Below, piece by piece: positions 26,522-54,323 of a DNA stretch of 64,000 nucleotides. The notes below the pieces were generated by a model. That model saw only the letters and a program-made list of their open reading frames with translations, was not told where the DNA came from and did not search any database. Position numbers and translations under genes: made by a program. The number at the start of each line of letters is the position of its first letter. The stretch's first letter is position 1. Origin of the DNA: Paraburkholderia sp. Tr-20389 (GTDB lineage: Bacteria > Pseudomonadota > Gammaproteobacteria > Burkholderiales > Burkholderiaceae); NCBI RefSeq assembly GCF_017104565.1, contig NZ_JAAGPD010000025.1, positions 1 through 64,000 of the forward strand, in the 5' to 3' direction.

Positions 26522-26618
26522 GTCGGGGCGTCGAAAGAGATGGAGCCTCTGCGTTCACGAACGCTCGATGCGCTGTGCGGTGTGAGGCGACTGTCGCAGA
26601 TTAGGGCGGGGTGTGTGG

Positions 26619-26645
26619 TGCGTCCCCTCTCCGGACGGGAGGGCA
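26619..26645. promoter_or_regulatory. Repeated imperfect dyad, first copy
   Basis: TGCGTCCCCTCTCC is followed after four bases by GGGAGGGCA. About 23 of 27 positions match the copy at 44046-44072, which lies in another divergent promoter region of the same cluster. The C-rich and G-rich halves form an imperfect inverted repeat, as expected for a protein-binding site. Confidence 0.5.
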
Positions 26646-26705
26646 ACGTGTCGCACCTCATGACCGCACGCTTCACCGCGTCGGATGCCCCGCCCCTGCA
26701 AGAAA

Positions 26706-26717
26706 GGGAGGGGATGA
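26706..26717 (+). promoter_or_regulatory. MalT-box-like motif
   Basis: GGGAGGGGATGA contains GGGGATGA, matching 8 of 10 positions of the MalT box GGGGAKGAGG when the next two bases are counted. It lies 114 bases upstream of the acyl-CoA dehydrogenase ATG at 26831. Binding by the MalT-like regulator at 29753 is an inference. Confidence 0.4.
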
Positions 26718-26830
26718 CACAGCAGTCGTCTCCCTAAGATGGGCTCTCGCGAAGCAATCAGGAAACCGGGCAAGGCCCAGCACGCCACCGTCAGGCGGGC
26801 GATGCTCCACATCTGTGAGTAGGACAACGC

Positions 26831-27991
26831 ATGGATTTCGATCTGACCTCGGAACAAAACATGTTGCAGGACAGCGTCCGCCGCTTCGTCGACAAGACGT
26901 ACGGGTTCGAAGCGCGCACGACCCTGCTGAAACAAGGGAAAAACGGCAGTGAAGCCAACTGGGGGACGTTTGCCGACAACGGCTGGCTGATGGCTGCCAT
27001 ACCCGAGGAGTATGGCGGCCTCGGCGGCACGCTGCTGGATACCGCGCTGATCGCGCAGGAGCTGGGGCGCGGACTCGTCGTCGAACCTTATCTGGGCTGT
27101 GCGGTACTCGCGGCCCAGACGCTGGTGGCGGGGGGCACGCCGGAGCAGTGTAACGGCCTGCTTCCCCGGCTCGCCGTCGGCACGCAGCGCATCGCGCTCG
27201 CCTATAGCGAACCGGGCTCGCGCGGCATGCCTCAGCCCGTGTCGCTGGTCGCCGAGCGCACCAGCGACGGCTACGTCCTACGCGGGCGCAAGTCACTCGT
27301 GCTCGGCGCGAGCGGGGCACACGCATTCATCGTTTCGGCGCAGGTTCCCGGTGTCGACGGCGTCACATTGCTGCTGGTCGACGCCGATACCCTGGGCTTG
27401 AGCCGTCAGGCGTTGCCGCTGCATGACGGCACGTGGGTCGAGGAATTGACCTTCGACGGCGCGCGGGTCCGTGAGGACGCGGTGATGGGCGAGCCGGGGC
27501 ACGGGCTGCCCGCACTGCAAGCCGGCCTCGCGGCGGGCACGGTGGCGCTCTGCGCGGAACTGATCGGCGTGATGGAGAAGACTATCGAGATCACCGCCGA
27601 ATACCTGAAGACCCGCCAGCAGTTCGGTGTGCCGCTCGGCTCTTTCCAGGTATTGCAGCACCGCATGGCCGACATGGCCGCCGAAATGGAGGTCGCGCGT
27701 TCGATGCTTCACGTTGCGCTGGCGTCGCTGGCGAATGACGACGCCCCCACGCGCGAACGGCAGATCGCCGCCGCGAAGATGCTGATCGGACGGGCGGCAA
27801 AGTTCGTCTGTGGTCAGGGTATCCAGTTGCACGGCGGCATCGGCATGACGGAAGAGTACGAGGTCGGCCACTACTACAAGCGCGCCGTCGTGGCGGACCT
27901 TCTGCTGGGCAGCAGCGACCGCTGCGAAGCCGCGTGTGCAGCGGCTCTGCAAGCCTCGGCGCAGTCTGGCGTGCAGGGCAACGTCGACTGA
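26831..27991 (+). CDS. Acyl-CoA dehydrogenase, pimeloyl-CoA dehydrogenase small-subunit-like
   Basis: The 386-residue protein has the acyl-CoA dehydrogenase fold (MDFDLTSEQNMLQDSVRRFVDKTYGF start, LHGGIGMTEEYEVGHYYKR near the end). The usual catalytic segment YEGT is replaced by LLGSSDRC, so the normal base glutamate appears absent. This is typical of the non-catalytic or specialised partner in two-subunit dehydrogenases such as PimCD or the steroid ChsE pairs. A possible partner is the enzyme at 46232. It opens an operon with a MaoC hydratase and another dehydrogenase. Confidence 0.88.
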   Translation: MDFDLTSEQNMLQDSVRRFVDKTYGFEARTTLLKQGKNGSEANWGTFADNGWLMAAIPEEYGGLGGTLLDTALIAQELGRGLVVEPYLGCAVLAAQTLVAGGTPEQCNGLLPRLAVGTQRIALAYSEPGSRGMPQPVSLVAERTSDGYVLRGRKSLVLGASGAHAFIVSAQVPGVDGVTLLLVDADTLGLSRQALPLHDGTWVEELTFDGARVREDAVMGEPGHGLPALQAGLAAGTVALCAELIGVMEKTIEITAEYLKTRQQFGVPLGSFQVLQHRMADMAAEMEVARSMLHVALASLANDDAPTRERQIAAAKMLIGRAAKFVCGQGIQLHGGIGMTEEYEVGHYYKRAVVADLLLGSSDRCEAACAAALQASAQSGVQGNVD

Positions 27992-28061
27992 GGCGTGCAC
28001 CGCGTGCCTGCGATGCAGCCGCGTTGCTGCTCAACCATCAACCCGCGAAGAGCGAGACAAC

Positions 28062-28517
28062 ATGAAGACTTACGAAACCTTGAGCCAGATGCAATCGCTG
28101 GTCGGCGAGATCGTTGGGACCAGCAACTGGGTCGTTATCGAACAGCAGCGCATCAACACGTTCGCAGATGCGACAGGCGACCACCAGTGGATTCACGTCG
28201 ATCCCGAGCGTGCCGCGAAAGGCCCGTTCGGCGCGCCCATTGCGCATGGCTTCCTGACGCTGAGCCTGCTGCCCGTGTTCCTGGAGACGGCGTTCGCGAT
28301 CCGCAGCGTCAAGATGGGCGTGAACTATGGGCTCAACCGCGTGCGCTTTCTGCGGCCTGTGCCCGTCAACAGCCGCGTGCGCGCCTGTTTCAAGCTGTTG
28401 AGCTTCGAGCCGATCGAGCCGCAGGGTTCGCAGCTCACCTATGAAATGACAGTCGAAACGGAAAACGGCGGCAAGCCGGTGTGCGTGGCCGAGTCGATCG
28501 TGCGCCTGTTCGACTGA
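28062..28517 (+). CDS. MaoC-like (R)-specific enoyl-CoA hydratase
   Basis: The 151-residue hotdog protein has the hydratase-2 motif FADATGDHQWIHVDPERA, with the catalytic Asp and His, followed by GPFGAPIAHGFLTLSLLP. Enzymes of this type add water to trans-2-enoyl-CoA to give (R)-3-hydroxyacyl-CoA. That product is a direct substrate for PHA synthase and for the hydroxysteroid-type SDR at 49631, so this gene could link beta-oxidation to phaC. It sits between two acyl-CoA dehydrogenase genes. I chose ATG 28062, giving MKTYETLSQMQSLVGE; the open frame extends upstream without a sensible start. Confidence 0.9.
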   Translation: MKTYETLSQMQSLVGEIVGTSNWVVIEQQRINTFADATGDHQWIHVDPERAAKGPFGAPIAHGFLTLSLLPVFLETAFAIRSVKMGVNYGLNRVRFLRPVPVNSRVRACFKLLSFEPIEPQGSQLTYEMTVETENGGKPVCVAESIVRLFD

Positions 28518-28538
28518 TAGAGACAACCGAGGAAAACA

Positions 28539-29693
28539 ATGAGCGATACATCCGCAGTGCTCCTGAACGAACAGGAAGTCATGATCCGCGATGCGGCCCG
28601 CAGGGTGGCACAGGACATCGTCGCCGCGACAGCCGCCGAACGCGACCGCACCAGCGCGTGGCCGCGCAACGAACTGAAGGCTGCCGGAGAGATGGGCTTT
28701 CTCGGTATGCACGTCCCCGAGGAATACGGCGGCTCGGCCGCGACCTTTCCGGAGTACTGCCTCGCGATCGAGGAGTTCGCTGCCGCTGACGCCGGCTTCG
28801 CAACCATCGTGCACGTCCACAACGGACTGGCCGGCGCAGTCGCGCAAGGCGGCACCGAAGCGCAAAAGCGCAAATACCTGCCGGACATGGCTTCCGGCAA
28901 GACCATCGTGGCCGGCCTTCTGACCGAACCGCAGGCCGGCTCGGACACCGCCGCGTTCCGCACGACCGCCCGCCGCGAAGGCGATCATTACGTGCTGAAC
29001 GGCAGCAAGCAGTTCATCTCGAACGGCAACGAGGCCGGCGTGGGTCTCGCGATCGCGGCCATCACCGAGACACCGGAAGGAAAGAAGGGGCCGAGTCTCT
29101 TCATCGTCGATCCGCGTGCGCCAGGCTACAACGTGACCCGCGTCGAGGAAAAACTGGGCCAGCGATCGGCCCATGTCGCGGCGATTCAGCTCGACGACCA
29201 TCGCGTGCCGGCGGAAAACCTGGTGGGTGAGGAAGGCGGCGGATACAAGCGCGTGATGGGCATGCTCTCCGAAGGACGCATCGGCATTGCCGCCGTGGCT
29301 TGCGGCGTCGCGCGAGCCGCGCTGGAAGCCGCAGTGAAGTACGCGCAAGAGCGCGAAGCGTACGGCGCGCCGATCATCAAGCTACAAGGCGTGGCCTTCG
29401 ATCTCGCCGACATGGCCACGCAGGTCGACGTCGCCTATCACTACATGCTGCATGCGGCCCGCCTGCACGCCGCTGGTGTGCCTTGTGCGAAAGAGGCGTC
29501 GATGGCGAAGCTGTTTGCAAGCGAGATCGCGGAAAAAGTGTGCTCGGAGGCGATCCAGATTCATGGCGGCTACGGCTATCTGACCGACTTCCCCGTCGAA
29601 CGCTATTACCGCGATGCCCGCGTGACCAAGATCTACGAAGGCACGAGCCATATCCAGAAGGTCATCATCGCGCGCAATCTCGGTTCGCGCTGA
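28539..29693 (+). CDS. Short/medium-chain acyl-CoA dehydrogenase
   Basis: The 384-residue flavoenzyme has all expected landmarks: GLLTEPQAGSDTAAF for FAD contacts, FISNGNEAG, RIGIAAVACGVARAALEAAVKYAQERE, and the C-terminal IYEGTSHIQKVIIARNL with the catalytic glutamate. It converts acyl-CoA to trans-2-enoyl-CoA. It begins 21 bases after the MaoC gene with an AGGAAAAC leader and ends the operon before a strong hairpin at 29710. It meets the MalT-like regulator gene convergently. Confidence 0.93.
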   Translation: MSDTSAVLLNEQEVMIRDAARRVAQDIVAATAAERDRTSAWPRNELKAAGEMGFLGMHVPEEYGGSAATFPEYCLAIEEFAAADAGFATIVHVHNGLAGAVAQGGTEAQKRKYLPDMASGKTIVAGLLTEPQAGSDTAAFRTTARREGDHYVLNGSKQFISNGNEAGVGLAIAAITETPEGKKGPSLFIVDPRAPGYNVTRVEEKLGQRSAHVAAIQLDDHRVPAENLVGEEGGGYKRVMGMLSEGRIGIAAVACGVARAALEAAVKYAQEREAYGAPIIKLQGVAFDLADMATQVDVAYHYMLHAARLHAAGVPCAKEASMAKLFASEIAEKVCSEAIQIHGGYGYLTDFPVERYYRDARVTKIYEGTSHIQKVIIARNLGSR

Positions 29694-29709
29694 GCAGCGC
29701 CTTATCTGC

Positions 29710-29734
29710 GGGGCGCGCGTTCTTCGCGCGCCCC
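29710..29734. terminator. Hairpin between convergent genes
   Basis: GGGGCGCGCG and CGCGCGCCCC form a perfect 10-base stem with loop TTCTT, between the ends of the acyl-CoA dehydrogenase and the MalT-like regulator. There is no strong T-run, but the position suits a two-way terminator. Confidence 0.55.
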
Positions 29735-29752
29735 CGTCTTCAGCGCAGTAAC

Positions 29753-32482
29753 CTACTTCAACATGCCACGCTGCCGCGCCAGCGAAATCGCATCGTAGCG
29801 GCTCGACACACCCAGCTTGGCGAGAATGTTCTTCACATTCCACTTCACCGTGCCGAACGTGATGTTCAGCGTCAACGCGATGCGTTTGTTCGACATGGCT
29901 TCTGCGATCAGTGTCAGGATTTCCAGTTCGCGTGGAGTCAGCGAGACCCGGTGCGGATCCGCGTTGCCTCTGCTGCCCGCGCCCGGGCTCGTAGCACCGC
30001 CCGCGTGAACATGTTCCGCTGCCGCGGCCGCGCCCGGTGTCATTCGGGTGAGCAGGTCGTCGAGATAGCGTGCGACGGGCGGCGGCAGGCTGGCGTCACC
30101 CTTCATCGCGGCCAGCAGATTGCCGATCTGTGCCTTCATGTCGAGCAGCGTGCGAACCAGCCCAAGCTTCGAACCCAGCGTCAGCGCCTGCGTCAGGCAG
30201 CGCGTCGCCTCCGCGTCCTGCTGCTGGCTGTGGTGCGCCACGGCGGCAAGCAGGTTCGCGCGGACCACCACGCGCTCTTGTCCATGCCCCTCTCCGAAGC
30301 GCAGCACGTCGACCAGCGCTCGCAACGCGACGCCGGGGTTGCTGTCCGCCAATGCCAGTTGCGCGCTTGCGGCTGCGGCAATGGCCGGAATCTCGACGAA
30401 CACGCCCGTCGCGTCCGCATAGCGCTCGCGCAGTACTTCGAGGCGGGTGACCAGTTCCGACGCGCGTCGGCGCTCGCCGACGGCGAGCAGCATGTTGACC
30501 TGTTCAGCGAGCATGTGCGCAAGCGCGCGATCCAGTCCGAGCAGATGGAAATGCGATGCCTGCGCTTCGAGGAACGCGAGCGCCGTTTCCGGTGCGTCCT
30601 GCAGGAAGTCGAGTCGCGCGCGGCACAGCGACGCGCGCGTCATCACGTCCGGCCATGAGGACTGCACGATACCCGTGCGGTTGGCGAGCACCTCGCGAGC
30701 GTCGTCGGTGCGGTCCAGTTCGTACCACGCATCGGCGAGCGTTGCAGCGCACAGGTTGGCGGCGACGGAGCCACGGCCAAACGCGGCTTCGGCGCGAGCA
30801 AGGATGCTGGTGCCGAGGCGTTCGGCTTGGGTGACGTCGCCGGCGACGAGGCACGCCTGCGCGCGAAAGCTTTCGAAGACCATCGCCATGTCATTGGCCC
30901 GGTCTTCCGGCGCGACGGGATTGTCGTCTAGCAAGCGGTGCACGTCGGCATGGCGACCGACCGCGAGGTACGCGGCGGCGAGCCCCGCGAGGCAGATGTA
31001 GCGCAGCGACGGGTTCTCGATCGGCATATTGCAGGCCGGTTCGAGAAGCTCGATGACGCGCTGCATGTCGTCGCGCTGCACGGCGATCGACGAATCCGTG
31101 ATGACGAACTTCGACGAGATCGCCGGGATTTTTGCGGCATCGGTGCGGCGAATCTGTTCGAGCCAGCGTTCGGCCTTGTCGGGCCGGCCCGTGAGCGCGT
31201 AGGTCAGGCAGCCGAGAAAGAACAGGCGTGGATGAGAGAACAGCGTCTCCTGCGGCAGGTGGTCGAGCAGATGCAACATGGGACCGATATAGGTCATGTT
31301 CCATGTCGATCTGGCGGCTGCCTGCTCCATCACGCCGGCGGCAAATTCGAGATCGCCGCCGAGGTTCGCGTGCCGCACCGATTCGACCAGCAGCCCCTGC
31401 TCCGCGAACCAGCGGCTGGCGCGCCGGTGCAGCGCGTCGACGGTCGGCTGGCCCTGCTGGGCGAGCCGCTGCGCGAGGAATTCGCCGAACAGCGGATGGA
31501 AGCGATACCACGGCGAGCGATCGTCGGAGTCGACGCGGTAGATCAGCAGGTTTTCATCCTCGGCGCGCTTGATCAGTTCGGCGGCGGAGGGATCTTCGGT
31601 GACGTATCCGGCCAGCTCGGCGTTGAAGCGCCGCAAGACCGCCGTTTTTTCCATGAACGAAATCAGTTCCGGCGGCAGGTAGGCCACCACGTCCTCGGCC
31701 AGATAGGACTGCAAATCAGCCGATTTCCACAGCAGCGCGCGCAGGTTCGCGCGCTTGGCCGGCCGGATGCGCAGCATCGTCGCGACGGGTTGCAGGCTCG
31801 CTGGCCAACCGGTCGTCAGATCGTGGATCAGGCGCACTTCGTCGGCCGTGAGCTTCAGCGTACTCAGGTTCTGTTCGAAGAAGGCGCGCGTTTCCTCCAG
31901 ATCGAAGGGCAGCTCGCCGAAGTCGATTTCCGAGACCTGGCCCTGCATGCGCAACCGCCCGAGGCTGAGCGGCGGAATGGTCCGAGACGCGATGACGATA
32001 TGCAGGTTCGCAGGACAGTGGTCGAGCAGTTTCTGCATCAGCCGGTGGGCGGCGGGTGCTTCCTCGTGATGGTAGTCGTCGATCAGCAGATACAGCTCGC
32101 GATCGATCTCTTCCATTGCACTGGTGACGACGGCCGCCACCGTATCGATCGACTGCTCGCTGCCGGTGGCATGCGGCACGATGCTCTCGGACGGCATGCC
32201 GAGGCGCTGGAACGCTTCCAGCAGGTAGGTGCAGAAGCGCGAGAAGTCGCGGTCGCCATGGCTCAGCGAGAGCCAGGCGACGTCGATGCCGGACTTGATC
32301 AGCGCCTGACGCCATTGCGCGAGCAGGATGGTCTTGCCGAAACCGGCGCCGCCCGTGATCAGCGTGGCGGCGCAGTACTTCGTCTCTTCCAGACGGGCCA
32401 GCAGATGCTGACGCAGGATATGACGGGGGCCGATGCGTGGCGGCGAGAACTTCGTCGCCACCAGGAGATTGTCGGAGTTCAT
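29753..32482 (-). CDS. MalT-like ATP-dependent LuxR-family transcriptional activator (LAL type)
   Basis: The 909-residue protein has the MalT architecture. A Walker A loop (GGAGFGKT, residues 44-51) and Walker B (LYLLIDDYHHEE) lie in the NTPase domain. A winged-helix region and a long helical TPR-like sensor domain follow. A LuxR-type helix-turn-helix comes at the C-terminus (LTPRELEILTLIAEAMSNKRIALTLN, then VKWNVKNILAKLGVSSRYDAISLA). Such proteins bind ATP plus an inducer, multimerise and activate catabolic operons. I chose ATG 32482; the open frame continues 79 residues upstream without resemblance to the family. Its gene lies in the middle of the cluster it probably controls. Confidence 0.9.
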   Translation of the reverse strand: MNSDNLLVATKFSPPRIGPRHILRQHLLARLEETKYCAATLITGGAGFGKTILLAQWRQALIKSGIDVAWLSLSHGDRDFSRFCTYLLEAFQRLGMPSESIVPHATGSEQSIDTVAAVVTSAMEEIDRELYLLIDDYHHEEAPAAHRLMQKLLDHCPANLHIVIASRTIPPLSLGRLRMQGQVSEIDFGELPFDLEETRAFFEQNLSTLKLTADEVRLIHDLTTGWPASLQPVATMLRIRPAKRANLRALLWKSADLQSYLAEDVVAYLPPELISFMEKTAVLRRFNAELAGYVTEDPSAAELIKRAEDENLLIYRVDSDDRSPWYRFHPLFGEFLAQRLAQQGQPTVDALHRRASRWFAEQGLLVESVRHANLGGDLEFAAGVMEQAAARSTWNMTYIGPMLHLLDHLPQETLFSHPRLFFLGCLTYALTGRPDKAERWLEQIRRTDAAKIPAISSKFVITDSSIAVQRDDMQRVIELLEPACNMPIENPSLRYICLAGLAAAYLAVGRHADVHRLLDDNPVAPEDRANDMAMVFESFRAQACLVAGDVTQAERLGTSILARAEAAFGRGSVAANLCAATLADAWYELDRTDDAREVLANRTGIVQSSWPDVMTRASLCRARLDFLQDAPETALAFLEAQASHFHLLGLDRALAHMLAEQVNMLLAVGERRRASELVTRLEVLRERYADATGVFVEIPAIAAAASAQLALADSNPGVALRALVDVLRFGEGHGQERVVVRANLLAAVAHHSQQQDAEATRCLTQALTLGSKLGLVRTLLDMKAQIGNLLAAMKGDASLPPPVARYLDDLLTRMTPGAAAAAEHVHAGGATSPGAGSRGNADPHRVSLTPRELEILTLIAEAMSNKRIALTLNITFGTVKWNVKNILAKLGVSSRYDAISLARQRGMLK

Positions 32483-32667
32483 GGCGGAGGCTTGCCTGTT
32501 CGGACTGTCCCGTGGCCTGGCAATGCGGGCGCTATGCCGCATCGGGCGGGGACTTGACGGCACATTATCGCGTTTCGATTTGCGCTTTGGAAGCCGCGGA
32601 AAGCCCGTATGGCATGTCGGCTTCTCGTGACCCGCGCTTTTGATTGCGGACCGTTGCGCGTCCGCAA

Positions 32668-32677
32668 GGGGAGGGGC
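32668..32677 (+). promoter_or_regulatory. MalT-box-like motif between regulator and crotonase
   Basis: GGGGAGGGGC, preceded by CGTCCGCAA, matches the MalT box at 8 of 10 positions. It lies 79 bases before the crotonase ATG and 186 bases from the start of the MalT-like gene, so it could serve both, including autoregulation. Confidence 0.4.
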
Positions 32678-32755
32678 AATTATGGGATCGCCTGACGTAC
32701 CTTGGCTGCCGACAGACACGCTCCGTGCGTGTCGATTCGGGACTAAGGAGAGGAG

Positions 32756-33532: not shown

Positions 33533-33594
33533 TCCGGGCGCGAGTGTTTGTACCTCGCGCTCACCTCCCTTTGCATTGAATCTGGAATAACGAC

Positions 33595-34839: not shown

Positions 34840-34873
34840 AATCGCAGCGATACGCGTAGAGCGTAGATGGTGA

Positions 34874-34908
34874 AACAAGGGGATGTGGCGATACCACATC
34901 CCCTTGTT
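34874..34908. terminator. Bidirectional terminator between convergent genes
   Basis: AACAAGGGGATGTGG and CCACATCCCCTTGTT form a perfect 15-base stem with a CGATA loop. It lies between the thiolase-family gene and the alcohol dehydrogenase, which are convergent. Short T-rich flanks on each strand fit a two-way terminator. The stem contains a MalT-box-like word by composition. Confidence 0.75.
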
Positions 34909-34933
34909 CGTTAACATCTGCCGCCGGCGAAGT

Positions 34934-37571: not shown

Positions 37572-38993
37572 TCACTCGACCGTGTTGAGAAAATCCATCG
37601 CCTCGCGATGCGAGCTTTCCGTCGCGGCGCAGGTGATCTTGTCGTCGCCGCCGTTCATCTCGCTGTAGCGCTGAATGGTCCCCGTGACGTAGCGGCTCGG
37701 ACGGCCGCACGTGCACGGCTTGTCCCACTCGACAGTGACTTCGTCGCCGCTGATGAAGCCGCCCCAGTGGACGTCGGCGCCGAGGTCATAGAACGCGGCG
37801 CGGCCCGTGACGCGGCCCGTGCGCGGCAACGGCTTGCTGGTTTCGGGATCGAGCAGGAACGGAATCACGGTATGCGCGAAGTGAAAATTGCCGTGCTCGC
37901 AACGCGGAGCCGAGCCGCTGAGGAGTTCCGACATCGCGTAGGTCTCGTTCAGCCGCGTCGCGCCGGTGAAGCGGAGCACGTCGTCGCGCCAGCCTTCCGG
38001 CTGCACCACACCCTTGGCGCCGCCCGTGGTCGAGACAAAGGAGTCGGGATGGAACACACCTTCGAGACCGCGTTCGAGACCCGCCTTCGCCATCCCGTGC
38101 AGCAGGTTCCACGTCGCGCCGATATACACGCGTTTGCCGCGCAGCTTCGTTGCCATGGCTTCGAAAAAGGCCGAGAGGTGCGCGGGCATCTCGGCCTGCA
38201 ATGTGTCGAATGCCTTCTTTTTCTCGATCAGTTCGGGGCTGATCTCCAGGCGGTCCAGCGTGCCTTTGGCATGAGCCGCGCGCAGCCTGGCGCCCAGGTG
38301 CAGCACGTCGGTCGAGAGCGTCGCGGGATAGGCGGCGTGGAAGTTTTCCTCACTGGGCAGCAGTGCGCGAATGAAAAATTCGTTGGCGCGCACATGGCTC
38401 AGGTAGCCCTTGCGGAAGTAGGGGAAGACCGTGTGCAGGTTCGGGTCCGGCATGTCGGGTCCCGCCTGGTTCCAGATGTACAGCTTGCGGACGTCGCAGG
38501 CCTTTTCCCACTCGCGCACGCTGGTGGGCAAAAACGAGATCGTGCCGGACGTGCCGGAAGTGTGGCTCACGCGCAATTCCGGCACGGCTTCATCCATCTT
38601 CGCGAACCATTCGTCGAGGCTGCGGCAGCCGCTGACGTCGGCGGCTGCGATGCGCTCGGCCATCTCCGTCGTGACGAGCTTGCCGAGCCATCGGTTGATC
38701 TGCGAAAACTGTTTCTTTTCGAGCAGGGACGGCGGGTAAGACTTGAAGACGGTGTGCTCGAACAGCAGCGGCACCGCGTCGTCGAGTGCATCGATGCGAG
38801 TCACGCCTTCCGCGTCGGCGAGCTTCTTGAGTACGGGCACGCGGTCGCGCAACTGCGCAAAACGCTGCTGCAATGCTTCGAACTGGATTGCATCGATGTC
38901 TGCGCGCGACAGATATTGCCAGGCATGAGCATCATGATTCGCTAAAGCGGCGGGGTCGTTCAGCAGCAGTTCGGTCTTTTTTTTCAGGGACAT
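37572..38993 (-). CDS. LuxE-like acyl-protein synthetase (ANL adenylate-forming superfamily)
   Basis: The 473-residue protein has the adenylate-forming P-loop SHTSGTSGTISFLP and the downstream STTGGAKG and YAMSELLSG segments. A C-terminal CTCGRPSRYVTG is similar to PaaK and LuxE. LuxE activates fatty acids as acyl-AMP and passes them to LuxC through a cysteine. The pairing with a LuxC homologue, 42 bases apart, supports this role. It is about 100 residues longer than Vibrio LuxE. I used ATG 38993; ATG 39008 is also possible, and neither has a strong ribosome-binding site. Confidence 0.83.
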   Translation of the reverse strand: MSLKKKTELLLNDPAALANHDAHAWQYLSRADIDAIQFEALQQRFAQLRDRVPVLKKLADAEGVTRIDALDDAVPLLFEHTVFKSYPPSLLEKKQFSQINRWLGKLVTTEMAERIAAADVSGCRSLDEWFAKMDEAVPELRVSHTSGTSGTISFLPTSVREWEKACDVRKLYIWNQAGPDMPDPNLHTVFPYFRKGYLSHVRANEFFIRALLPSEENFHAAYPATLSTDVLHLGARLRAAHAKGTLDRLEISPELIEKKKAFDTLQAEMPAHLSAFFEAMATKLRGKRVYIGATWNLLHGMAKAGLERGLEGVFHPDSFVSTTGGAKGVVQPEGWRDDVLRFTGATRLNETYAMSELLSGSAPRCEHGNFHFAHTVIPFLLDPETSKPLPRTGRVTGRAAFYDLGADVHWGGFISGDEVTVEWDKPCTCGRPSRYVTGTIQRYSEMNGGDDKITCAATESSHREAMDFLNTVE

Positions 38994-39329
38994 TTCTGTG
39001 AGGAGCATGGATGAACACCGCGTTGCGATCTCGCGGCGCTGGTGGTTGTCGACTAATCAGTATAGGAGCGGGAAAAGCGTTTTTTTCTCCGGATTCCTAA
39101 GATGGCATTTGGCCGTTACGTTTCTGATTCGAAAGAGAAATATCGATGAGCGGCGCAGCTGGCTCTGTGTTTGCGCGAGCGTCGTGGCGAGCGCTGGGCG
39201 GATTTGCTCGCCGTCCGACAAGGGAGGGACAAAGCTGCCGATGTTCGTGCACGCTGTCTCCGTCGACGGTGGCCGGTGACGGATCGGCGCATCCCGTTCG
39301 ACTCCGCGTTTCGCCAGGGATAACCCGCC
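38994..39329. other. Divergent promoter region between luxE-like and tetR genes (336 bases)
   Basis: No gene is visible here. The region is less GC-rich near 39050-39130 and contains a MalT-box-like motif at 39218-39230. TetR operators are usually short palindromes in such regions, but I could not single one out with confidence. Confidence 0.6.
39218..39230 (+). promoter_or_regulatory. Weak MalT-box-like motif
   Basis: GACAAGGGAGGGAC follows CGTCC, the same arrangement as at 32660-32677 (CGTCCGCAAGGGGAGGGG). It is a weaker match (6 of 10) to the MalT box. It lies 100 bases before the tetR ATG. Confidence 0.3.
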
Positions 39330-40001: not shown

Positions 40002-40089
40002 GCGATCGCTGCGCTCCCTCCCAAAAATGGGGGAGAACAGCGCGGAAGCGATGCGTATCGTTCTGAACGACCCTCACCACGGAGATGCC

Positions 40090-41445
40090 ATGAAGAGTCC
40101 GTCGCCAATACTCGACGTGCGGCAGTTCATCGATGAACGGCCATTTTCGCGGTATCAATGGGGCATTCTGGTTGTCTGCTTCCTGCTCGTCGCCATCGAT
40201 ACTTATGACAGCGTGACGATCGGATTCGTCGTCCCCGTGCTCGCGCATGCGTGGAGCTCGAGCAAGGCGGCCTTCGGTACGGTGATGAGCGCCGGGATTC
40301 TGGGGCTGGCGACGGGAGCGTTGATCGCCGGGCCGCTGTTCGACCGTACGAGTCCTAAGACGGTGATCGTCGGCGCGATGGTCGTCTACGGGATGTGCAG
40401 TATTGGCACCATGTCGGCCGATTCGGTCGCATCGCTCGGTGCATGGCGTTTCTTCACTGGAGTGGGTGTAGGCGCGGCCGCGCCGGGTGCGGCGACGCTG
40501 ATGTACGAGTATGCGCCCGCCCGCATGAGCGCGTTTCTCGTGAACGCGATCGGTTGCGGCGCTTTGATCGGCGCGTCGATGTGCGGATTGATCGCGGCAG
40601 TGGCGGTCCCGGCGTACGGCTGGCAGAGTCTCTTCCTGATCGGCGGCGTGCTGCCGCTCGCGCTGGCGATGGTCATGGTGATCGTTACGCCGCAGCCGTT
40701 GCACTTCATGATCCAGCGCGGCTTCCCTCAACCCCGTATCGCCGCGGTGCTGAGGCGCATTGCGCCCGACGTCCAGCTCGATGTCGTCAGATTCGTATTG
40801 CAGGAAGCAATACCGCAACGTCAGGCGGGCGTACGCATGGTGTTGTCCCGTCCGTTCAGAATGGGCACCGTGATGCTGTGGAGCGCGTACTTCTTCAGCA
40901 CCTTTGCCTACTACCTTTTGCTGGGCTGGTTGCCGACGCTTATCCAGGGCACGGGCGCCACCTTGCGGGATTCATCGCTGATCACGGTCTTGCTGACGCT
41001 GGGAGGCATCATCGGCACGCTTCTGCTCGGCCGGTTCATGGATCGCTTCGAAAAAAACGCAGTGATCGCAGCAGCCTATGCGTTCGGCGGCGCGGGCGTG
41101 TGGCTGATCGGACGGCAGGCGGGCAATCTCGGATGGATTGCGTCGTGGGTCTTCATCGCGGGCATCGGTTTGAGCGGCGCTCTGCTGTCGATGAGTTTTC
41201 TCGCAGCAGCGTTCTATCCGGCCGGCGGCCGTTCGACAGGAATCGCCTGGATGCACGGTGTCGGTCGCCTGGGCGGCTTCATGGGCCCGATGGCAGGCGC
41301 CGCGATGCTTCGGGCGGACTATAGCTTTCGAACGGTCTTTACCGTGGTGATGGCGTTCGTGCTGTTGTCGGCTGCCGCGCTGATGATCAAACGCGCGGCA
41401 GCCAGGCGGGCCACGGCCGGCGAACTGCAAACGGAGTCGGCGTAG
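40090..41445 (+). CDS. MFS transporter, aromatic acid:H+ symporter (AAHS) type
   Basis: The 451-residue membrane protein has about 12 hydrophobic segments, starting with WGILVVCFLLVAIDTYDSVTIGFVVP. The first cytoplasmic loop carries the AAHS-type signature GPLFDRTSPKTVIVG, and the mirrored GRFMDRFEKNAV occurs in the second half. This subfamily imports small carboxylates such as benzoate-type acids with protons. It follows the tetR gene by 88 bases and precedes an SDR gene. CACGGAG before ATG 40090 supports this start over an upstream ATG at 40027. Confidence 0.88.
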   Translation: MKSPSPILDVRQFIDERPFSRYQWGILVVCFLLVAIDTYDSVTIGFVVPVLAHAWSSSKAAFGTVMSAGILGLATGALIAGPLFDRTSPKTVIVGAMVVYGMCSIGTMSADSVASLGAWRFFTGVGVGAAAPGAATLMYEYAPARMSAFLVNAIGCGALIGASMCGLIAAVAVPAYGWQSLFLIGGVLPLALAMVMVIVTPQPLHFMIQRGFPQPRIAAVLRRIAPDVQLDVVRFVLQEAIPQRQAGVRMVLSRPFRMGTVMLWSAYFFSTFAYYLLLGWLPTLIQGTGATLRDSSLITVLLTLGGIIGTLLLGRFMDRFEKNAVIAAAYAFGGAGVWLIGRQAGNLGWIASWVFIAGIGLSGALLSMSFLAAAFYPAGGRSTGIAWMHGVGRLGGFMGPMAGAAMLRADYSFRTVFTVVMAFVLLSAAALMIKRAAARRATAGELQTESA

Positions 41446-43140: not shown

Positions 43141-43162
43141 GTTTGTCTCCCGCAATGGCAGG

Positions 43163-43957: not shown

Positions 43958-44045
43958 GGTGTCTCCGAGTTGTGATCGAGGCGTTGTGATCGAGCCATTG
44001 GAAGGCCATACCTGTTCCCGCCGACGATAACGATCCGGTCTTCGA

Positions 44046-44072
44046 TGCGTCCCCTCTCCCTATGGAAGGGCA
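44046..44072. promoter_or_regulatory. Repeated imperfect dyad, second copy
   Basis: TGCGTCCCCTCTCC, four bases, then GGAAGGGCA. The first 14 bases are identical to 26619-26632 and the whole block matches at about 23 of 27 positions. It lies in the divergent promoter region between two crotonase operons. Confidence 0.5.
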
Positions 44073-44101
44073 TGCGCGCGCGATCCGCCGACAGCAAAAA
44101 A

Positions 44102-44109
44102 GGGAGGGG
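44102..44109 (+). promoter_or_regulatory. MalT-box-like motif
   Basis: GGGAGGGG, preceded by AAAAAA, lies 75 bases before the crotonase ATG at 44184. With its neighbouring bases it matches 7 of 10 positions of the MalT box. Confidence 0.35.
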
Positions 44110-44183
44110 CGGACGTCCCGCGCGCTTTTCTACTATCGATTAACAAGTACGAACCAGGAAGCTTAGCCGGAGAGGAAATCTGT

Positions 44184-44981: not shown

Positions 44982-45038
44982 CGAGGCCGCGCGAAGACCT
45001 GTTCGTATCTACCGCATCAACCATTCAAGGAGAAACAC

Positions 45039-46220: not shown

Positions 46221-46231
46221 CGGGGGCAGGC

Positions 46232-47428: not shown

Positions 47429-47459
47429 TTCGGCACGCCTATCAGGAGAGAGACAAAAC

Positions 47460-48611: not shown

Positions 48612-48622
48612 GGAGACAAGAC

Positions 48623-49420
48623 ATGAATGACAGCAAAGTGCTGTTCGAGAAGGATGGCAAGACAGCCGTCATCACGCTGAACCGTCCGCACAGAAGAAAT
48701 GCACTCGATGACGAATCCAAGCAACTGCTCGCCGCCGCGATCAGAACGGCGCGGGAAGACGCTTCGATCGCCTCCGTGGTGTTGACGGGCGCGGGCGGTC
48801 ACTTCTGCTCGGGCGCGGACCTCGGCGGTGACGGGAAAGAAGGCGAGATGCCGTTCCTCGTGCGCGACGCGCTGCTCGGTGCCCATCGCTGGCATGCCGA
48901 GCTGATGGATCTGGAGAAGCCGGTGATCTCGGCGATCGATGGCTTCGCGGTCGGCGCGGGGCTGTCGCTCGCGCTGGCGGCGGACTTCATCATCGCCAGC
49001 GACCGGGCGCGGCTGGTGTCCAACTTTCCGCGCATCGGTTTTGCCCCCGACCTCGGGCTGATGTATATCCTGCCGCGCCTCGTCGGGCTCGTACGCGCCA
49101 AGGAGATCGTCTTCTCCGCGCGCGACGTTCTGGCGGATGAGGCGCTGTCGATCGGTCTCGTGCAGGCCGTGGCGCCAGCCGAGCGCTTGCGGCAGACCGC
49201 GATCGACTATGCCCGCCGTTTCGACGATGCGCCGACGCACGTGCTCGGCATGGCCAAGGGCATCATGAATCGCGCGTTCGAGACCGACCGGCACGCGATG
49301 ACGCAACTGGAAACGGCAGTGCAGGGAATCTGCGCGGCCAGCAGCTACAACGCTGAGGCAGTGCGGCGCTTTTTCGCAAAAGAGCCGCCGATGTATGCGG
49401 GCGTGGAACGCCTGTTCTGA
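48623..49420 (+). CDS. Enoyl-CoA hydratase/isomerase, paralogue B
   Basis: The 265-residue crotonase is the close paralogue of the one at 44184 and has the same length. Shared features include TAVITLNRPHRRNALD, KPVISAIDGFAVGAGLSLALAADF, FPRIGFAPDLGLMYILPRLVG (Asp in the catalytic loop), and RRFFAKEP near the end. The two copies flank the thiolase-dehydrogenase-racemase genes. It starts 11 bases after the racemase, with AAGGAGACAAGAC upstream. A much longer open frame upstream overlaps the racemase and is not real. Confidence 0.9.
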   Translation: MNDSKVLFEKDGKTAVITLNRPHRRNALDDESKQLLAAAIRTAREDASIASVVLTGAGGHFCSGADLGGDGKEGEMPFLVRDALLGAHRWHAELMDLEKPVISAIDGFAVGAGLSLALAADFIIASDRARLVSNFPRIGFAPDLGLMYILPRLVGLVRAKEIVFSARDVLADEALSIGLVQAVAPAERLRQTAIDYARRFDDAPTHVLGMAKGIMNRAFETDRHAMTQLETAVQGICAASSYNAEAVRRFFAKEPPMYAGVERLF

Positions 49421-49464
49421 AGGGCATCGCACGGTCCGCATGCCGACGCTCCGGCCGTCCACAA

Positions 49465-49484
49465 GGGGAGGTGAGGAGGGGGAG
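49465..49484 (+). promoter_or_regulatory. Tandem MalT-box-like motifs
   Basis: GGGGAGGTGAGG at 49465 and GGGGAG at 49479 lie in the 210-base gap before the SDR gene at 49631, preceded by CGTCCACAA as at the other sites. The first matches the MalT box at about 8 of 10 positions. Two adjacent copies in one direction resemble the arrangement at MalT promoters. Confidence 0.4.
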
Positions 49485-49630
49485 CGGCCGGCGTAACGTG
49501 GCGTCAGCCTGACGGGCGCGCTCGAATCAGTGAGCGCACAAGAGTCCGTCTCTTCAGGGAATTCAACAACCGTCGTGCGTGGCTCACGACCACGCACGTC
49601 TTTCATCATCCAGTACTTCAGGGCAATATC

Positions 49631-50542
49631 ATGACGATTCGATTTGACGGCCGGGTGGCCATTGTGACGGGCGCTGGCAACGGCCTGGGCCGCGTACACG
49701 CGCTCGAGCTGGCGAAGCTCGGTGCGAAAGTGGTGATCAACGACTTCGGCGGTGCGCGTGACGGCAAGGGCGGTGCGTCGTCGGACGCGGCGTTGGCCGT
49801 GGTCGAAGAGATTCGCAAGGCCGGTGGCCAGGCCATTGCCAATGGCGCCAACGTCGCGGATTTCGAGCAGGTCACGGCGATGGTCGAGCAGACCAAGGCC
49901 GAGTTCGGCCGCATCGACATCCTGATCAACAACGCCGGCATCCTGCGCGACAAGACTTTCGCCAAGATGGAAATGGCGGATTTCCGCGCCGTCGTCGACG
50001 TGCATCTGATGGGCTCGGCCTATTGCACGAAAGCGGTATGGGAAACCATGCGCGAACAGAACTATGGTCGTATCCTGATGACGACGTCGGCGGCCGGGCT
50101 GTTCGGCAACTTCGGTCAGGCGAACTACGGCGCGGCCAAGATGGCCGTGGTCGGTCTGATGAACATGCTGGGCATCGAAGGCAAAAAGAACGACATCCGC
50201 ATCAACACGCTGGCGCCGATGGCGGCAACTCGCATGACGGAAGACATCCTGCCGGAAGCCATTCTCAAGGCGACGGGCCCGGAGCAGGTGACGCCGGGCG
50301 CGCTCTTCCTCGTGAGCGAAAATGCGCCGAACAAGGTGGTCCTCGGTGCAAGCGGCGGCGTATTCTCGGCCATTCGTCTCGTCGAAACGGCACCGGTGTA
50401 CATTTCGAGCAAGGATCTGTCGGCGGACGCGGTGCAGAAGCAGTTCGAACGCATCACCGACTGGAGCACGTCCGTTCATCGCGACGACGCCAACCAGCAG
50501 GTTCATGCCTTCGTGACCACCATGCAAGGCGCCCACGCATAA
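49631..50542 (+). CDS. (R)-3-hydroxyacyl-CoA dehydrogenase-like SDR, 17-beta-HSD4/MFE-2 type
   Basis: The 303-residue protein matches the dehydrogenase domain of peroxisomal multifunctional enzyme 2 and the actinobacterial Hsd4A proteins. It shows VAIVTGAGNGLGRVHALELAKLGAKVVINDFGG, NNAGILRDKTFAKM, the catalytic YGAAKM, and a C-terminal extension (ITDWSTSVHRDDA). This type oxidises (R)-3-hydroxyacyl-CoA, the product of MaoC hydratases such as the one at 28062. It is separated from the preceding operon by a 210-base gap with candidate regulatory boxes, so it may have its own promoter. Confidence 0.92.
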   Translation: MTIRFDGRVAIVTGAGNGLGRVHALELAKLGAKVVINDFGGARDGKGGASSDAALAVVEEIRKAGGQAIANGANVADFEQVTAMVEQTKAEFGRIDILINNAGILRDKTFAKMEMADFRAVVDVHLMGSAYCTKAVWETMREQNYGRILMTTSAAGLFGNFGQANYGAAKMAVVGLMNMLGIEGKKNDIRINTLAPMAATRMTEDILPEAILKATGPEQVTPGALFLVSENAPNKVVLGASGGVFSAIRLVETAPVYISSKDLSADAVQKQFERITDWSTSVHRDDANQQVHAFVTTMQGAHA

Positions 50543-50749
50543 GCGCGGCGCCCGGTCGCCGCTGAGGACGCGACGGGAGCATGGCATTGAGGCGGCATTG
50601 AAGCATCGAACACCGGGGCATGCGTCGGAGGAGTCGCCGCGACCAGCCGCCTCGTCCCCGGTGCGAGACTTAAAAGAGTCTGCCAGTCGGCGATATACCG
50701 TGATGCCCGCAAGCGGGCCGACCGGCAGGCATGACTCCAGGAGACAAAG

Positions 50750-52318
50750 ATGAAGACCAACTTCGCTCGCCTGTTTGCGAATCTCGTGAGGCGATTCGGG
50801 GACAAGGAGAGCCTGGTCAATATCGAGCGCAATCGCCGGTACACATACCGCGAATTCCATGCGTTGACCAATCGCATCGTGAACATGATGCGCGAGCGGC
50901 TGCAGCTTCGACGCGGCGATATCTATCTTTGCCTGCTCGAGAACGACAACATGTCGTTGCTCCATTTCTGGACCGCGCTCAAGGGCGAGGCCGCGGCGGC
51001 GTATACGAATTTCCGCGACTCTTTCGACGAACATTGCCGACAGGCCGAATATATCCGGCCGAAAGTCGTGTTCATCGAAACCGCACTCGTCGATCGCTAC
51101 TACGACATGCTGCATGCGCTGGGTGCGACAGTCGTTTGCATGGACGACGCGCCAGTGAAGCGCGACGGCTTGCTCAATTTCTGGGAGTTGCTCGAAGGCG
51201 TGCCGGACCATGATCCGGGCATCGAAAGCGATACGCAAAAGGACATCCTCGTCTATCGCTTCACGGGCGGCACCACCGGCGCAGGCAAGTGCGCCCAGTA
51301 TTCGATGGATAACTGGCTGGCCTGCCGCGACACGATGTTCATGGAGCCGGACCAGTTCCAGCTTCCCGACACGCGCATGCTGCACATGGCGCCGATCAGC
51401 CACGGCTCCGGCTTCGGGGTGCTGGCCACATTGTTCCGCGGCGGCTGCACCGTCACGCAGAATCTGCCCGACCTGGCGCTGATGTGCAAAAACATCGAAG
51501 CCGAGCGGATCACGATGACCTTGCTCCTGCCGACGCTGATCTATCGTCTGCTCGAAATGCCGGAAGCCTCCCATCACGATCTGTCGACGCTGCGCACGAT
51601 CGCCTACGGCGGCGCACCGATGAGCCCCGCGAAGCTGCGACTGGCGCAGGAGCGTTTCGGCAATATCTTCGTGCAGTTTTATGGCGCAACGGAAAGCCTG
51701 CAATCGGTCGGCATCCTCGGCAAGGCCGATCATCTGACGGCGACCGAAAAGCAGCTCGGCTCTGCGGGGCGCATTCAGTCCGGTGTCGAGATCATGATCG
51801 TCGATCGCGAAGGGAAAGAAGTGGTGCCTGGCGAGGTCGGCGAAATCTGGGCGCGCAGCCGCGGCGTCATTTCGGGTTACTACTTGAATCCCGAGGCGAC
51901 GGCGGCCGAGTTCGAAAACGGCTTCTGGAAATCGGGCGATCTGGGCTACATCGATGACGAGGGTTTCATCTATCTGGTCGATCGCAGAAAGGACATGATC
52001 ATCACGGGCGGCTTCAACGTCTATGCGGTCGAAGTGGAAGCGGCGCTCAACGCGCATCCGGCCGTATCGATGTCGGCGGCGGTCGGCGTTCCGAGCGAGG
52101 AGTGGGGCGAGGCCGTGCACGCCGAAGTGAAGCTCAAGGAAGGCGAGTACGTCAGCGAGGAAGCGCTGATCGAGTTCGTCAAGGGAAAGCTCGGACGCTT
52201 CAAAGGGCCGAAGACCGTGACGTTCGTCGACGCGTTGCCGATCAGCGCCGTCGGCAAGGTGTTGCGCCGTCAGGTGCGCGACAAGTACTGGCAAGACAAA
52301 GATCGCCACATTTCGTGA
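50750..52318 (+). CDS. Acyl-CoA synthetase (AMP-forming), FadD17-like
   Basis: The 522-residue adenylate-forming ligase has the P-loop YRFTGGTTGAGKCAQYS, the A5 motif QFYGATESLQSVG, and the hinge and core KDMIITGGFNVYAVEVEAAL. GKVLRRQVRDKYW near the end carries the catalytic lysine. It would activate the carboxylic acid substrate to its CoA thioester, the entry step for the cluster. Similar ligases in actinobacteria act on steroid side chains or branched acids. It starts 207 bases after the SDR; the gap shows an inverted CACCGGGG/CCCCGGTG pair of uncertain meaning. Confidence 0.9.
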   Translation: MKTNFARLFANLVRRFGDKESLVNIERNRRYTYREFHALTNRIVNMMRERLQLRRGDIYLCLLENDNMSLLHFWTALKGEAAAAYTNFRDSFDEHCRQAEYIRPKVVFIETALVDRYYDMLHALGATVVCMDDAPVKRDGLLNFWELLEGVPDHDPGIESDTQKDILVYRFTGGTTGAGKCAQYSMDNWLACRDTMFMEPDQFQLPDTRMLHMAPISHGSGFGVLATLFRGGCTVTQNLPDLALMCKNIEAERITMTLLLPTLIYRLLEMPEASHHDLSTLRTIAYGGAPMSPAKLRLAQERFGNIFVQFYGATESLQSVGILGKADHLTATEKQLGSAGRIQSGVEIMIVDREGKEVVPGEVGEIWARSRGVISGYYLNPEATAAEFENGFWKSGDLGYIDDEGFIYLVDRRKDMIITGGFNVYAVEVEAALNAHPAVSMSAAVGVPSEEWGEAVHAEVKLKEGEYVSEEALIEFVKGKLGRFKGPKTVTFVDALPISAVGKVLRRQVRDKYWQDKDRHIS

Positions 52319-52367
52319 GCGCTGCCTGGCAGCAGGGACGTCTGCGTACCCTGGATGAGGAAATGAA

Positions 52368-53633
52368 ATGACAGACCGATACGATTCCCGTGGCGCATGG
52401 CGTACCGCGGCACTGCTGCTCGTGTTCATGATGGCCAACTTCTTCGACAAGATCGTCGTCGGACTGCTGGCCGTGCCCATCATGAACGAACTCAAGCTTA
52501 CGCCCGCGCAGTTCGGCGTGATCGGCAGCAGCTTTTTCTGGCTGTTCGCCGTCGGCGGTATTGCCGGGGGCTTCATCGCGAATCGGGTCGCCACGCGATG
52601 GCTGTTATTGGTAATGGCCGTCGCTTGGTCGCTCTGTCAGATTCCGCTGATCCTGTCGTCATCCCTGGCGATGTTCGTCGTGGCGCGCGTGGCGCTGGGA
52701 CTGACGGAAGGGCCGGCGTATCCGACCGCGGTTCATGCCGTGTACAAATGGTTTCCGCCCAACAAACGCATCTTGCCCGTCGCGCTGTTCGGCACGGGCG
52801 CTGGTCTGGGCTTGCTGGTCGCGGGCATGCTCGTCCCGCTCGTGACGCAGCGCTGGGGCTGGCGCACGAACTTCGTCGTCCTGTGTGCGTTCACGCTGCT
52901 GTGGGCTGTGGCGTGGCTCGCGTTCGGCAGGGAAGGAAAGCTCGACGATACGCCGTCGCAGGCAATGGCGCGTCGTCCGATTCCATACGGCCGTCTGCTA
53001 GGCGACCCTTCCGTGTTCGCCGCGATTTCGATGCAATTCGTCTCGTACTGGGGGATTGCTATGGCCTTTACCTGGCTGCCAGCCTACTTCCAGAAAGGAC
53101 TTGGCTGCGATGCCGTGACGTCGGGCCGTCTCTATGCGGTGACGATCGCGGCGCAGATACCGCTGGCACTCGCCACTGCGTTTCTCGTGCAAAAGCTGCT
53201 TGCACGCGGGACGTCGTCACGGATCGCACGCGGCTGGTTTACCGCCGGATGTCAGGTGCTGGCGGGTGTGATGTTCATCTGCCTCATGATTCCGGATCTC
53301 TCGCTCGTTACGCGCGAAATCATGATAACCATCGGTTCGGCGCTGGGTGCGATCAGCTATGCAATCTGTCCGGCGATTCTCGGCGAGATCGCGCCGCCCT
53401 CGCAACGTAGTGCGGTGCTCGCACTGAGCACCTCGATCGCTTCGATCGCGGGCATCGTTTCGCCGTTCCTGACGGGACGGCTCATTCAGGCCAACGTCGG
53501 CGCGCATGGTTACGAACTGGGTTTCTTCATGGGAGGGGCGATGCTGATCGTCGGTAGCGTGATCGGCGCGACCTTTGTGAATCCTGAGCGTTCGATACGT
53601 CGCCAGGCGGCTGTGACTGCTGCATTGGACTGA
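52368..53633 (+). CDS. MFS transporter, anion:cation symporter-like
   Basis: The 421-residue protein has 12 predicted hydrophobic segments, beginning AALLLVFMMANFFDKIVVGLLAVPIMN. VALGLTEGPAYPTAVHAVYKWFPPNKR, with the conserved helix-4 pattern of the ACS/NarK-type organic anion transporters, lies in the first half. It probably imports the carboxylic acid activated by the ligase 50 bases upstream. It ends the plus-strand run; a 690-base gap follows. Confidence 0.88.
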   Translation: MTDRYDSRGAWRTAALLLVFMMANFFDKIVVGLLAVPIMNELKLTPAQFGVIGSSFFWLFAVGGIAGGFIANRVATRWLLLVMAVAWSLCQIPLILSSSLAMFVVARVALGLTEGPAYPTAVHAVYKWFPPNKRILPVALFGTGAGLGLLVAGMLVPLVTQRWGWRTNFVVLCAFTLLWAVAWLAFGREGKLDDTPSQAMARRPIPYGRLLGDPSVFAAISMQFVSYWGIAMAFTWLPAYFQKGLGCDAVTSGRLYAVTIAAQIPLALATAFLVQKLLARGTSSRIARGWFTAGCQVLAGVMFICLMIPDLSLVTREIMITIGSALGAISYAICPAILGEIAPPSQRSAVLALSTSIASIAGIVSPFLTGRLIQANVGAHGYELGFFMGGAMLIVGSVIGATFVNPERSIRRQAAVTAALD

Positions 53634-54323
53634 CGTCTGCTGGAAAGCGGCTTGCGGCATCGCCGCGGCCGCTGTGCTTCTGATGAGTGCTTCCTCTGTC
53701 ATCAACGTTCGTTGGCGTTGACCTTTGGACACCTTATGATTCGGCGAATCCGTTCGCAAGAGCGATCACCCGCTCGTCCAGATAAGCTCTCGATAACAGC
53801 AGGTACGCCCCCCCGTCTGGCCTGCTTCGGAACAACTCGCTTCTTCCGTTACGTTCATGGCCAATCCCCGTGTATCGCTGCGCGGGATTGACTCACGCCC
53901 TGCTTCCACATCCAGCCTGTCGCCCACGGGCGCGTACGCGCGTCGAATCGATACGTGCACTGCGGCGCTGCCTTGCATGATCGCGAGGCCGTTCTCCGCT
54001 CATGACCGCACTACAGTCCGTTCCCCCTCCCCCTCCCCTTTATGCAGGGGAGGAAACAAATCGCGGCGTGTACCTTGGACTCGGCTTCGCGATGTCTTCG
54101 GGACTGGCAGCTCGGTGGTCAATAAGCGGCTTGTTATCCGGTTGGCGCACGTGGTCGATTCAGTAGAAGCGCGGTGGCTGAATCCAGGGGAGGCGACGGT
54201 CTGCGCACCCAACCCGTCTTCGGACGCGGTGAGGTTTGTCTCAGGCCAAGATCGCACACCGGCAGCCTGCTTGACGCTCTGGCTCAACAGAGTGCGGCGA
54301 TGAAAAAAACAGGAGACAAGGAG
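53634..54323. other. Intergenic region before the envelope module (690 bases)
   Basis: No frame here resembles a protein; the longest (53857-54303) is rich in Ser, Arg and Pro and lacks a ribosome-binding site. The region contains opposed G-rich motifs (54023-54056). The remainder shows no recognised feature, although it must contain the promoter of the module. Confidence 0.65.
54023..54056. promoter_or_regulatory. Inverted pair of MalT-box-like motifs
   Basis: On the minus strand GGGGAGGGGG (54029-54038) matches the MalT box at 9 of 10 positions, and it overlaps a further G-rich copy at 54023-54032. On the plus strand GGGGAGGAAA (54047-54056) matches at 8 of 10. They lie about 270-300 bases upstream of the DUF1302 gene. 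This is the densest cluster of such sites in the window. Confidence 0.45.

Follow-up and report, generated by a model that had tools for sequence, protein, structure and literature searches.

The 64,000-nucleotide stretch of Paraburkholderia sp. Tr-20389 analyzed here (contig NZ_JAAGPD010000025.1; hereafter the window) comes from a soil bacterium with a 9.0-Mb genome of 63% G+C, and is the piece of that genome carrying a degradation gene cluster. Nine copies of a G/C-rich promoter element, or box, were found in the cluster, all oriented towards the downstream gene. The element is conserved, keeps its spacing to a −10-like hexamer, is confined to the cluster and co-occurs with the gene for an activator of MalT architecture that the cluster itself encodes (29753 to 32482, minus strand). 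We consider it probable, at roughly 0.84, that the element is the operator of this activator, centered near −44 in an AlkS-like placement. On the sequence evidence, the genes concerned form a new predicted regulon of a known kind of regulator. The predicted operator, promoter geometry and regulon make the ligand and the pathway testable, and they link an Ame-like envelope module to the same predicted switch. To our knowledge, few regulators of MalT architecture have a known operator.

Footprinting drew on sequences upstream of orthologous genes in P. sartisoli (G003), the relative G018, three Cupriavidus and seven Pseudomonas loci, with two Pseudomonas loci added later. The element so defined consists of a C-rich left half, a right half (G)GGGAGGGG, an interval of 20 to 21 nt and a −10-like hexamer. 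A matrix of 25 sites from other genomes, none of them from the window, gave eight window sites scores of 11.9 to 34.4 bits. The box before the ACAD1-MaoC-ACAD2 genes (ACAD, acyl-CoA dehydrogenase; 26692 to 26743, plus strand) scores 34.4 bits, has TAAGAT 21 nt from AGGGG, and is conserved in P. sartisoli, G018 and three Cupriavidus. Back to back with it, a minus-strand box at 26594 to 26645 (18.8 bits; TAATCT 20 nt from AGGGG) faces DUF2889/phaC. It was matched at E=0.03 by the whole-genome model R1, which was built from 17 non-window sites, two of them from Pseudomonas; its counterpart before FadD2 in G018 (11.8 bits) was a training site, and none was seen in P. sartisoli. The box before ECH1 and thiolase 1 (ECH, enoyl-CoA hydratase; 32655 to 32706, plus strand) scores 33.3 bits, has TACCTT 21 nt from AGGGG, and is conserved in Burkholderiales and Pseudomonas. 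The gap at 44.0 kb, like that at 26.6 kb, holds two back-to-back boxes, one per divergent gene. One, on the minus strand (44021 to 44072; 24.9 bits), faces ECH2-SDR2 (SDR, short-chain dehydrogenase/reductase) and has counterparts in G018 and three Cupriavidus; the other, on the plus strand (44088 to 44139; 26.0 bits), precedes ECH3-thiolase 2-ACAD3-CoA transferase-ECH4. The remaining boxes are all on the plus strand. That at 49452 to 49503 (34.3 bits; TAACGT 20 nt from AGGTG) precedes SDR3-FadD-MFS2. A box at 40014 to 40065 (14.0 bits), with a 10.5-bit counterpart in Cupriavidus sp. IDO, precedes the first MFS transporter gene (MFS1) and SDR1; the transporter most likely starts at 40090, not at the open reading frame start at 40027, and the box sits in the wrongly included stretch. 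A weak box (39208 to 39259; 11.9 bits) precedes a TetR gene, and a 10.3-bit site lies in the same gap in G018. The ninth box, at 54028 to 54079, precedes the DUF1302-DUF1329-BNR-MMPL module; it contains the dyad CCTCCCC-N8-GGGGAGG, has AGGGG 20 nt from TACCTT, and is conserved in P. sartisoli. Its initial description as a 6-bp spacing outlier was dropped: with AGGGG aligned with the second G-run, the interval is 20 nt and conforms.

The distance between box and hexamer is kept across promoters and genera. The ECH1 promoter block in the window reads CGTCCGCAAGGGGAGGGG, 21 nt, TACCTTGG, and Pseudomonas L010 has CGTCCATTAAGGGAGGGG instead; the ACAD1 block, in both the window and P. sartisoli, reads CCCCTGCAAGAAAGGGAGGGG, 21 nt, TAAGAT. 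Among 11 ECH1 promoters from Cupriavidus and Pseudomonas, CGTCC and the TA-hexamer are 39 nt apart in eight and 38 nt apart in the other three. A permissive pattern, an AGGGG-like half followed at 20 or 21 nt by a TA or TT hexamer, fits 8/9 window sites. When six Burkholderiales were aligned, the 20-nt bin holding the box had an identity of 0.74 (ECH1) and 0.88 (ACAD1), against 0.22 to 0.38 for bins starting at least 50 nt upstream. Identity in the bin just upstream of the box was 0.36 (ECH1) and 0.61 (ACAD1), and in the bin of the −10-like hexamer 0.78 (ECH1) and 0.47 to 0.48 (ACAD1). The box center lies about 32 nt upstream of the hexamer and would therefore fall near −44, taking the hexamer as the −10. 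Operators of the AlkS/LuxR type are centered near −42.5 and overlap the −35 region.

An inverted repeat exceeds shuffles (p<0.05) in 16/52 sites, with 2.6 expected; many of these sites are orthologs and hence non-independent. The repeat is present in the ACAD1 sites, the MFS1 and DUF1302 sites of the window, the ECH2 site of G018 and five of eight sites from sister clades of the regulator, and it is perfect in two FadD2 sites of Cupriavidus and in the sites of the sister-clade genome G276. A uniform perfect dyad was dropped as a description of the element, the inverted repeat being backed by those 16 sites only.

The preliminary description of this DNA had reported G-rich words at 26706 (GGGAGGGGATGA), 32668 (GGGGAGGGGC), 39222 (GGGAGGGAC), 44102 (GGGAGGGGCG), 49465 (GGGGAGGTGAGG) and 54023 to 54056 (CCCCTCCCC..GGGGAGGAAA), and had proposed that their signal rests on position. 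The words are at these places, and five of the six sites score 11.9 to 34.4 bits as part of the longer promoter element, far above chance. Three copies had been missed, those at 26594 to 26645 (minus), 44021 to 44072 (minus) and 40014 to 40065 (plus). With a first matrix of 11 ECH1 sites from Cupriavidus and Pseudomonas, the ten best of about 128,000 window positions included 32655+, 49452+, 26645−, 26692+, 44072−, 44088+ and, at rank 10, 54028+, and 40014+ came next (rank 11). Of the three remaining top-10 entries, those ranked 4 and 7 fell inside called genes and one was a shifted duplicate; above-zero scores were reached only at 32655+, 49452+ and 26645−. With the 25-site matrix, every window position of at least 11.9 bits (the eight sites and one shifted duplicate) precedes a cluster gene, in line with the claim that sites are lacking before unrelated genes. 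By the gene calls, 6/8 of these positions are intergenic, and the other two lie inside the over-called starts of the regulator and the MFS transporter.

Beyond the window, 390 kb of this genome gave a maximum score of 11.4 bits; 0/777,960 positions reached 11.9 bits and 2 reached 8. Thirty simulated windows (Markov order 3) gave one match of at least 11.9 bits in total. In the genome searches, scoring was confined to the top-ranked first-look candidates: for the own genome, 150 of 1899, and at most 98, 14 and 15 per genome in the sets of 60, 398 and 369 genomes used below. Among the best 150 candidates of the 9.0-Mb genome, R1 gave seven matches at E≤10, all within this cluster. On another reading, the G-rich words arise by chance in a genome of 63% G+C or belong to an intergenic repeat dispersed through it, which would fit the chance frequency of the literal 10-mer of the MalT box, described below. 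This explanation is already refuted by the box conservation and retained hexamer spacing described above and by a genome scan that gave no dispersed copies among the candidates scored, and we give it almost no weight. A dispersed intergenic repeat had been suggested by CGTCCCCTCTCC..GGGAGGGG, and both pattern and model searches of the whole genome went against it.

The words had also been read as resembling MalT boxes, GGGGAKGAGG, a consensus that we took from the preliminary description. As copies of this decamer they did not stand out: with up to two mismatches there are 100 matches in the window and 98.3 ± 9.3 in shuffled sequence, and the four exact copies in the 9.0-Mb genome all lie outside the window. 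With respect to density, the literal word is thus at chance and the real element above background. In the part of PMC6099782 available, MalT boxes are described as two decamers in direct repeat; a direct repeat within the 23-nt box exceeded shuffles (p<0.05) in 0/52 sites, and a direct-repeat reading of the element was rejected on this result. Around E. coli malP-malT (17 kb), the matrix gave no useful match, its highest score being 4.5 bits, inside malQ. That the sites are true MalT boxes, read by the regulator as MalT reads its DNA, draws on the MalT architecture of the protein and on the resemblance of the half-site GGGGAGGGG to GGGGAKGAGG; given the results above and a helix-turn-helix that is 42% identical with a different recognition helix, we regard it as improbable. 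What stood of the original proposal is a recurring promoter-bound element that marks the cluster and goes with a regulator of MalT architecture. The MalT-box label did not stand, since the consensus differs and the direct repeat is lacking within the box: the element is not a classical MalT box but probably an operator of its own kind.

The assignment of MalT architecture to the regulator is borne out by protein-domain scans, by a PDB match and by alignment with E. coli MalT. The 909-residue protein has an NTPase (NOD) region, a MalT-like TPR region and a C-terminal GerE/LuxR helix-turn-helix, the N-terminal NTPase, TPR-like sensor and C-terminal LuxR domain that define the large ATP-binding STAND/LuxR regulators. 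Pfam matches were GerE (1.1e-14) and TPR_MalT (3.2e-11, with a score of 43.5 just under the cut-off of 45), and residues 7 to 419 matched MalT in the PDB (8bob) at 2.3e-50. It is not a MalT equivalog: NCBIfam NF003420 gave 339.3 bits for the over-called 988-residue frame, against a cut-off of 537. The start was moved from 32719 to 32482, where the protein begins MNSDNLLVATKFSPP. We take 29753 to 32482 as the gene because the upstream frame has stops in P. sartisoli and three Cupriavidus, and because close orthologs in G003, G018 and three others match residues 1 to 909 in full. Identity to E. coli MalT is 29% over the NOD (472 alignment columns) and 42% over the helix-turn-helix (57 columns). 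The recognition helix is TFGTVKWNVKNILAKL in the regulator and AATTIKTHIRNLYQKL in E. coli MalT, and members of the box-bearing clade have TFGTVKWNVKNIL[AD]KL in common. Relatives of the regulator are common, with at least one match at E≤0.001 in 57/60 genomes, many to the DNA-binding domain only. In G006 (contig C12, 25001 to 80000; L078-L080), three MalT-like regulators, 46 to 50% identical to that of the window, lie amid pathway genes in one related cluster. In G336 (L136-L137), the regulator match consists of two adjoining segments, 62 to 63% identical, perhaps owing to a frameshift or an assembly error.

Conservation of the element extends to loci of Paraburkholderia, Cupriavidus and Pseudomonas with an orthologous regulator, and relatives that retain the regulator and the target genes retain it; its loss from such relatives would have spoken against the original proposal. 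Among 60 relatives, R1 matches at E≤0.01 were found only in the own genome, G003 and G018, which carry regulator orthologs of 76 to 100% identity. Among 398 genomes of the family, the regulator had a match at E≤1e-200 in 23 and was, in that search, at least 64% identical in seven (G000, G003, G018, G248, G271, G326 and G336); R1 at E≤0.01 picked out exactly those seven plus G242 (one match, E=0.00995), with about four chance genomes expected by E-value. The other 16 family genomes, with regulator relatives of 44 to 52% identity, gave no R1 match at E≤0.01. Among 369 genomes of the class, the regulator was found in the own genome only, and four single R1 matches (E=0.007 to 0.008) compare with 3.7 expected by chance. 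Untrained Cupriavidus promoters scored in 3/3 genomes each: 29.9 to 40.7 bits for SDR3, 29.4 to 34.7 for ECH3 and 14.6 to 18.5 for ECH2. MFS1 scored 10.5 bits in one of the three. The Paraburkholderia orthologs of these promoters were in the training set, MFS1 excepted. The untrained ECH1 site of Pseudomonas L010 scored 28.1 bits.

This correspondence between box-bearing and regulator-bearing genomes also bears on the idea that another regulator, the TetR protein or a global factor, binds the element while the MalT-like protein acts elsewhere. The TetR gene does lie within the cluster, preceded by the weak box. P. sartisoli, however, retains four boxes, and a search of its genome, made without a positive control, did not find a TetR homolog; a global factor would give sites elsewhere, and none appeared at E≤10 among the candidates covered. 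We consider a different reader of the box as improbable as true MalT boxes.

Several observations weigh against assigning the element to the MalT-like activator, or against individual sites. Because cluster and regulator travel together, the same co-occurrence would be seen if the element were some other conserved feature of the promoters and not the operator of this regulator. Five of the seven regulator-bearing family genomes supplied training sites (G003, G018, G248, G271 and G326, where G248 is L007, G271 is L009 and G326 is L008), so that only G000 and G336 were wholly untrained, and G336 gave one R1 match (E=0.0014) and matrix scores of 8.4 to 19.4 bits. Weak sites elsewhere can be missed, since the best candidates alone were scored. 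Among the boxes found, none is oriented towards the regulator gene itself. The dyad is non-uniform: in the ECH1, SDR3 and ECH3 sites, no inverted repeat exceeded shuffles (p<0.05). The TetR site is weak and has no TA or TT hexamer at 20 to 21 nt, and of three Cupriavidus only one showed the MFS1 box, which was not seen in L007 and L008. The DUF1302 box fits only one matrix, lying outside the top 16 positions (at least 3.1 bits) of the 25-site matrix, and R1 matched it (54022 to 54050, E=2.3) on the opposite strand from its gene.

If the element is the operator of the MalT-like activator, a mechanism may be proposed. A ligand, probably the pathway substrate or an acyl-CoA intermediate, would bind the STAND protein, which would then open and multimerize; ligand-dependent multimerization has been described for MalT (PMC4381067, as far as the available part of that source goes). 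The LuxR-type helix-turn-helix domains would bind the site of about 21 bp, with its near-invariant right half (A)GGGG and its C-rich left half. From there, about 32 nt upstream of the putative −10 hexamer, the bound activator would recruit RNA polymerase next to the −35 in the class II manner. Eight predicted operons of the cluster would be switched on together, perhaps with the TetR gene.

A close parallel is AlkS of Pseudomonas putida GPo1, a MalT/LuxR-type activator of a catabolic cluster that, in the portion of PMC8784404 available, acts at PalkB and PalkS2 through a single site of about 20 bp, of inverted-repeat character, upstream of the regulated promoters. The element described here differs in being G/C-rich with an (A)GGGG right half, in having a partial dyad in several promoters, and in the lack of a box pointing at its own regulator gene; AlkS, by contrast, has a feedback site. 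In a further difference from the AlkS system, the cluster proteins scanned included no alkane monooxygenase. E. coli MalT shares the domain architecture and a G-rich asymmetric half-site with the present system, and differs in operator consensus and arrangement, in the recognition helix and in its targets, maltodextrin genes rather than acyl-CoA degradation genes. TpdR of Rhodococcus jostii TMP1, acting at PTTMP, likewise belongs to the large ATP-binding LuxR-type activators, controls a catabolic operon and has a short repeated operator close to the promoter; the 15-nt direct repeat TnnAAnnGCGGAnTC proposed for it, in the available section of PMC6099782, contrasts with the single G/C-rich site without a direct repeat seen here.

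Regulators of about 50% identity have other recognition helices, T[LV]ETVKWNLRNIF and SVGTTKWNVRNIL. In some clusters of these sister clades the sites are related yet distinct, for example CCCCCTCGAAACGAGGGGG in G276 and CCCCCTCAAGAATAGGGGG in G185, G012 and G021; with the window-clade matrix they score about 8 to 21 bits and lie mostly before cluster genes, and no site of at least 8 bits was found with that matrix in G259 and G165. We treat these sites as leads. A tentative view, to which we give somewhat less than even odds, is that a catabolic STAND/LuxR subfamily of Burkholderiales and Pseudomonas shares one operator plan, with a C-rich left half and a G-rich right half 20 to 21 nt from the −10, whose center would have changed from clade to clade along with the recognition helix: the window clade, with TFGTVKWNVKNIL, would read CCCCT/CGTCC-N-GGGGAGGGG, and its sisters dyads such as CCCCCTCGAAACGAGGGGG. 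If so, there would be a sequence code predicting the regulon of any member.

Protein scans of the window identified acyl-CoA dehydrogenases, enoyl-CoA hydratases, thiolase-like proteins of the lipid-transfer type, SDRs, a CoA ligase, a class III CoA transferase, and a LuxC-type acyl-CoA reductase with a zinc alcohol dehydrogenase (ADH), together with transporters, a TetR protein and the DUF1302-DUF1329-BNR-MMPL module. Among the matches listed, judged on title and the start of the abstract, no published description of the pathway or the operator was recognized. The envelope module (54174 to 61093) resembles the Ame proteins of Castellaniella monoterpene metabolism, for which the accessible part of PMC6394551 describes the DUF1302 protein AmeA, the DUF1329 protein AmeB and the RND transporter AmeD. 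Adjoining the LuxC-type reductase, a 478-residue protein (37572 to 39008, minus strand) has near full-length matches of 68 to 86% identity in relatives; Pfam gave nothing for it up to E=10, and its PDB match is at chance level (E=0.14).

No box reading towards the LuxE-like/LuxC/ADH operon was found in the window, G018 or C. yeoncheonensis, and this operon may answer to the TetR protein instead. Its promoter (39009 to 39329; L134, 815 to 1190) keeps the two motifs TATACTGA and GAATCCGGAG. The first has the form TATACTGA in the window and TATACTGACC in two relatives, and in C. yeoncheonensis the counterpart of GAATCCGGAG forms a perfect palindrome, CTCCGGAATCCGGAG, which makes it a candidate operator for TetR.

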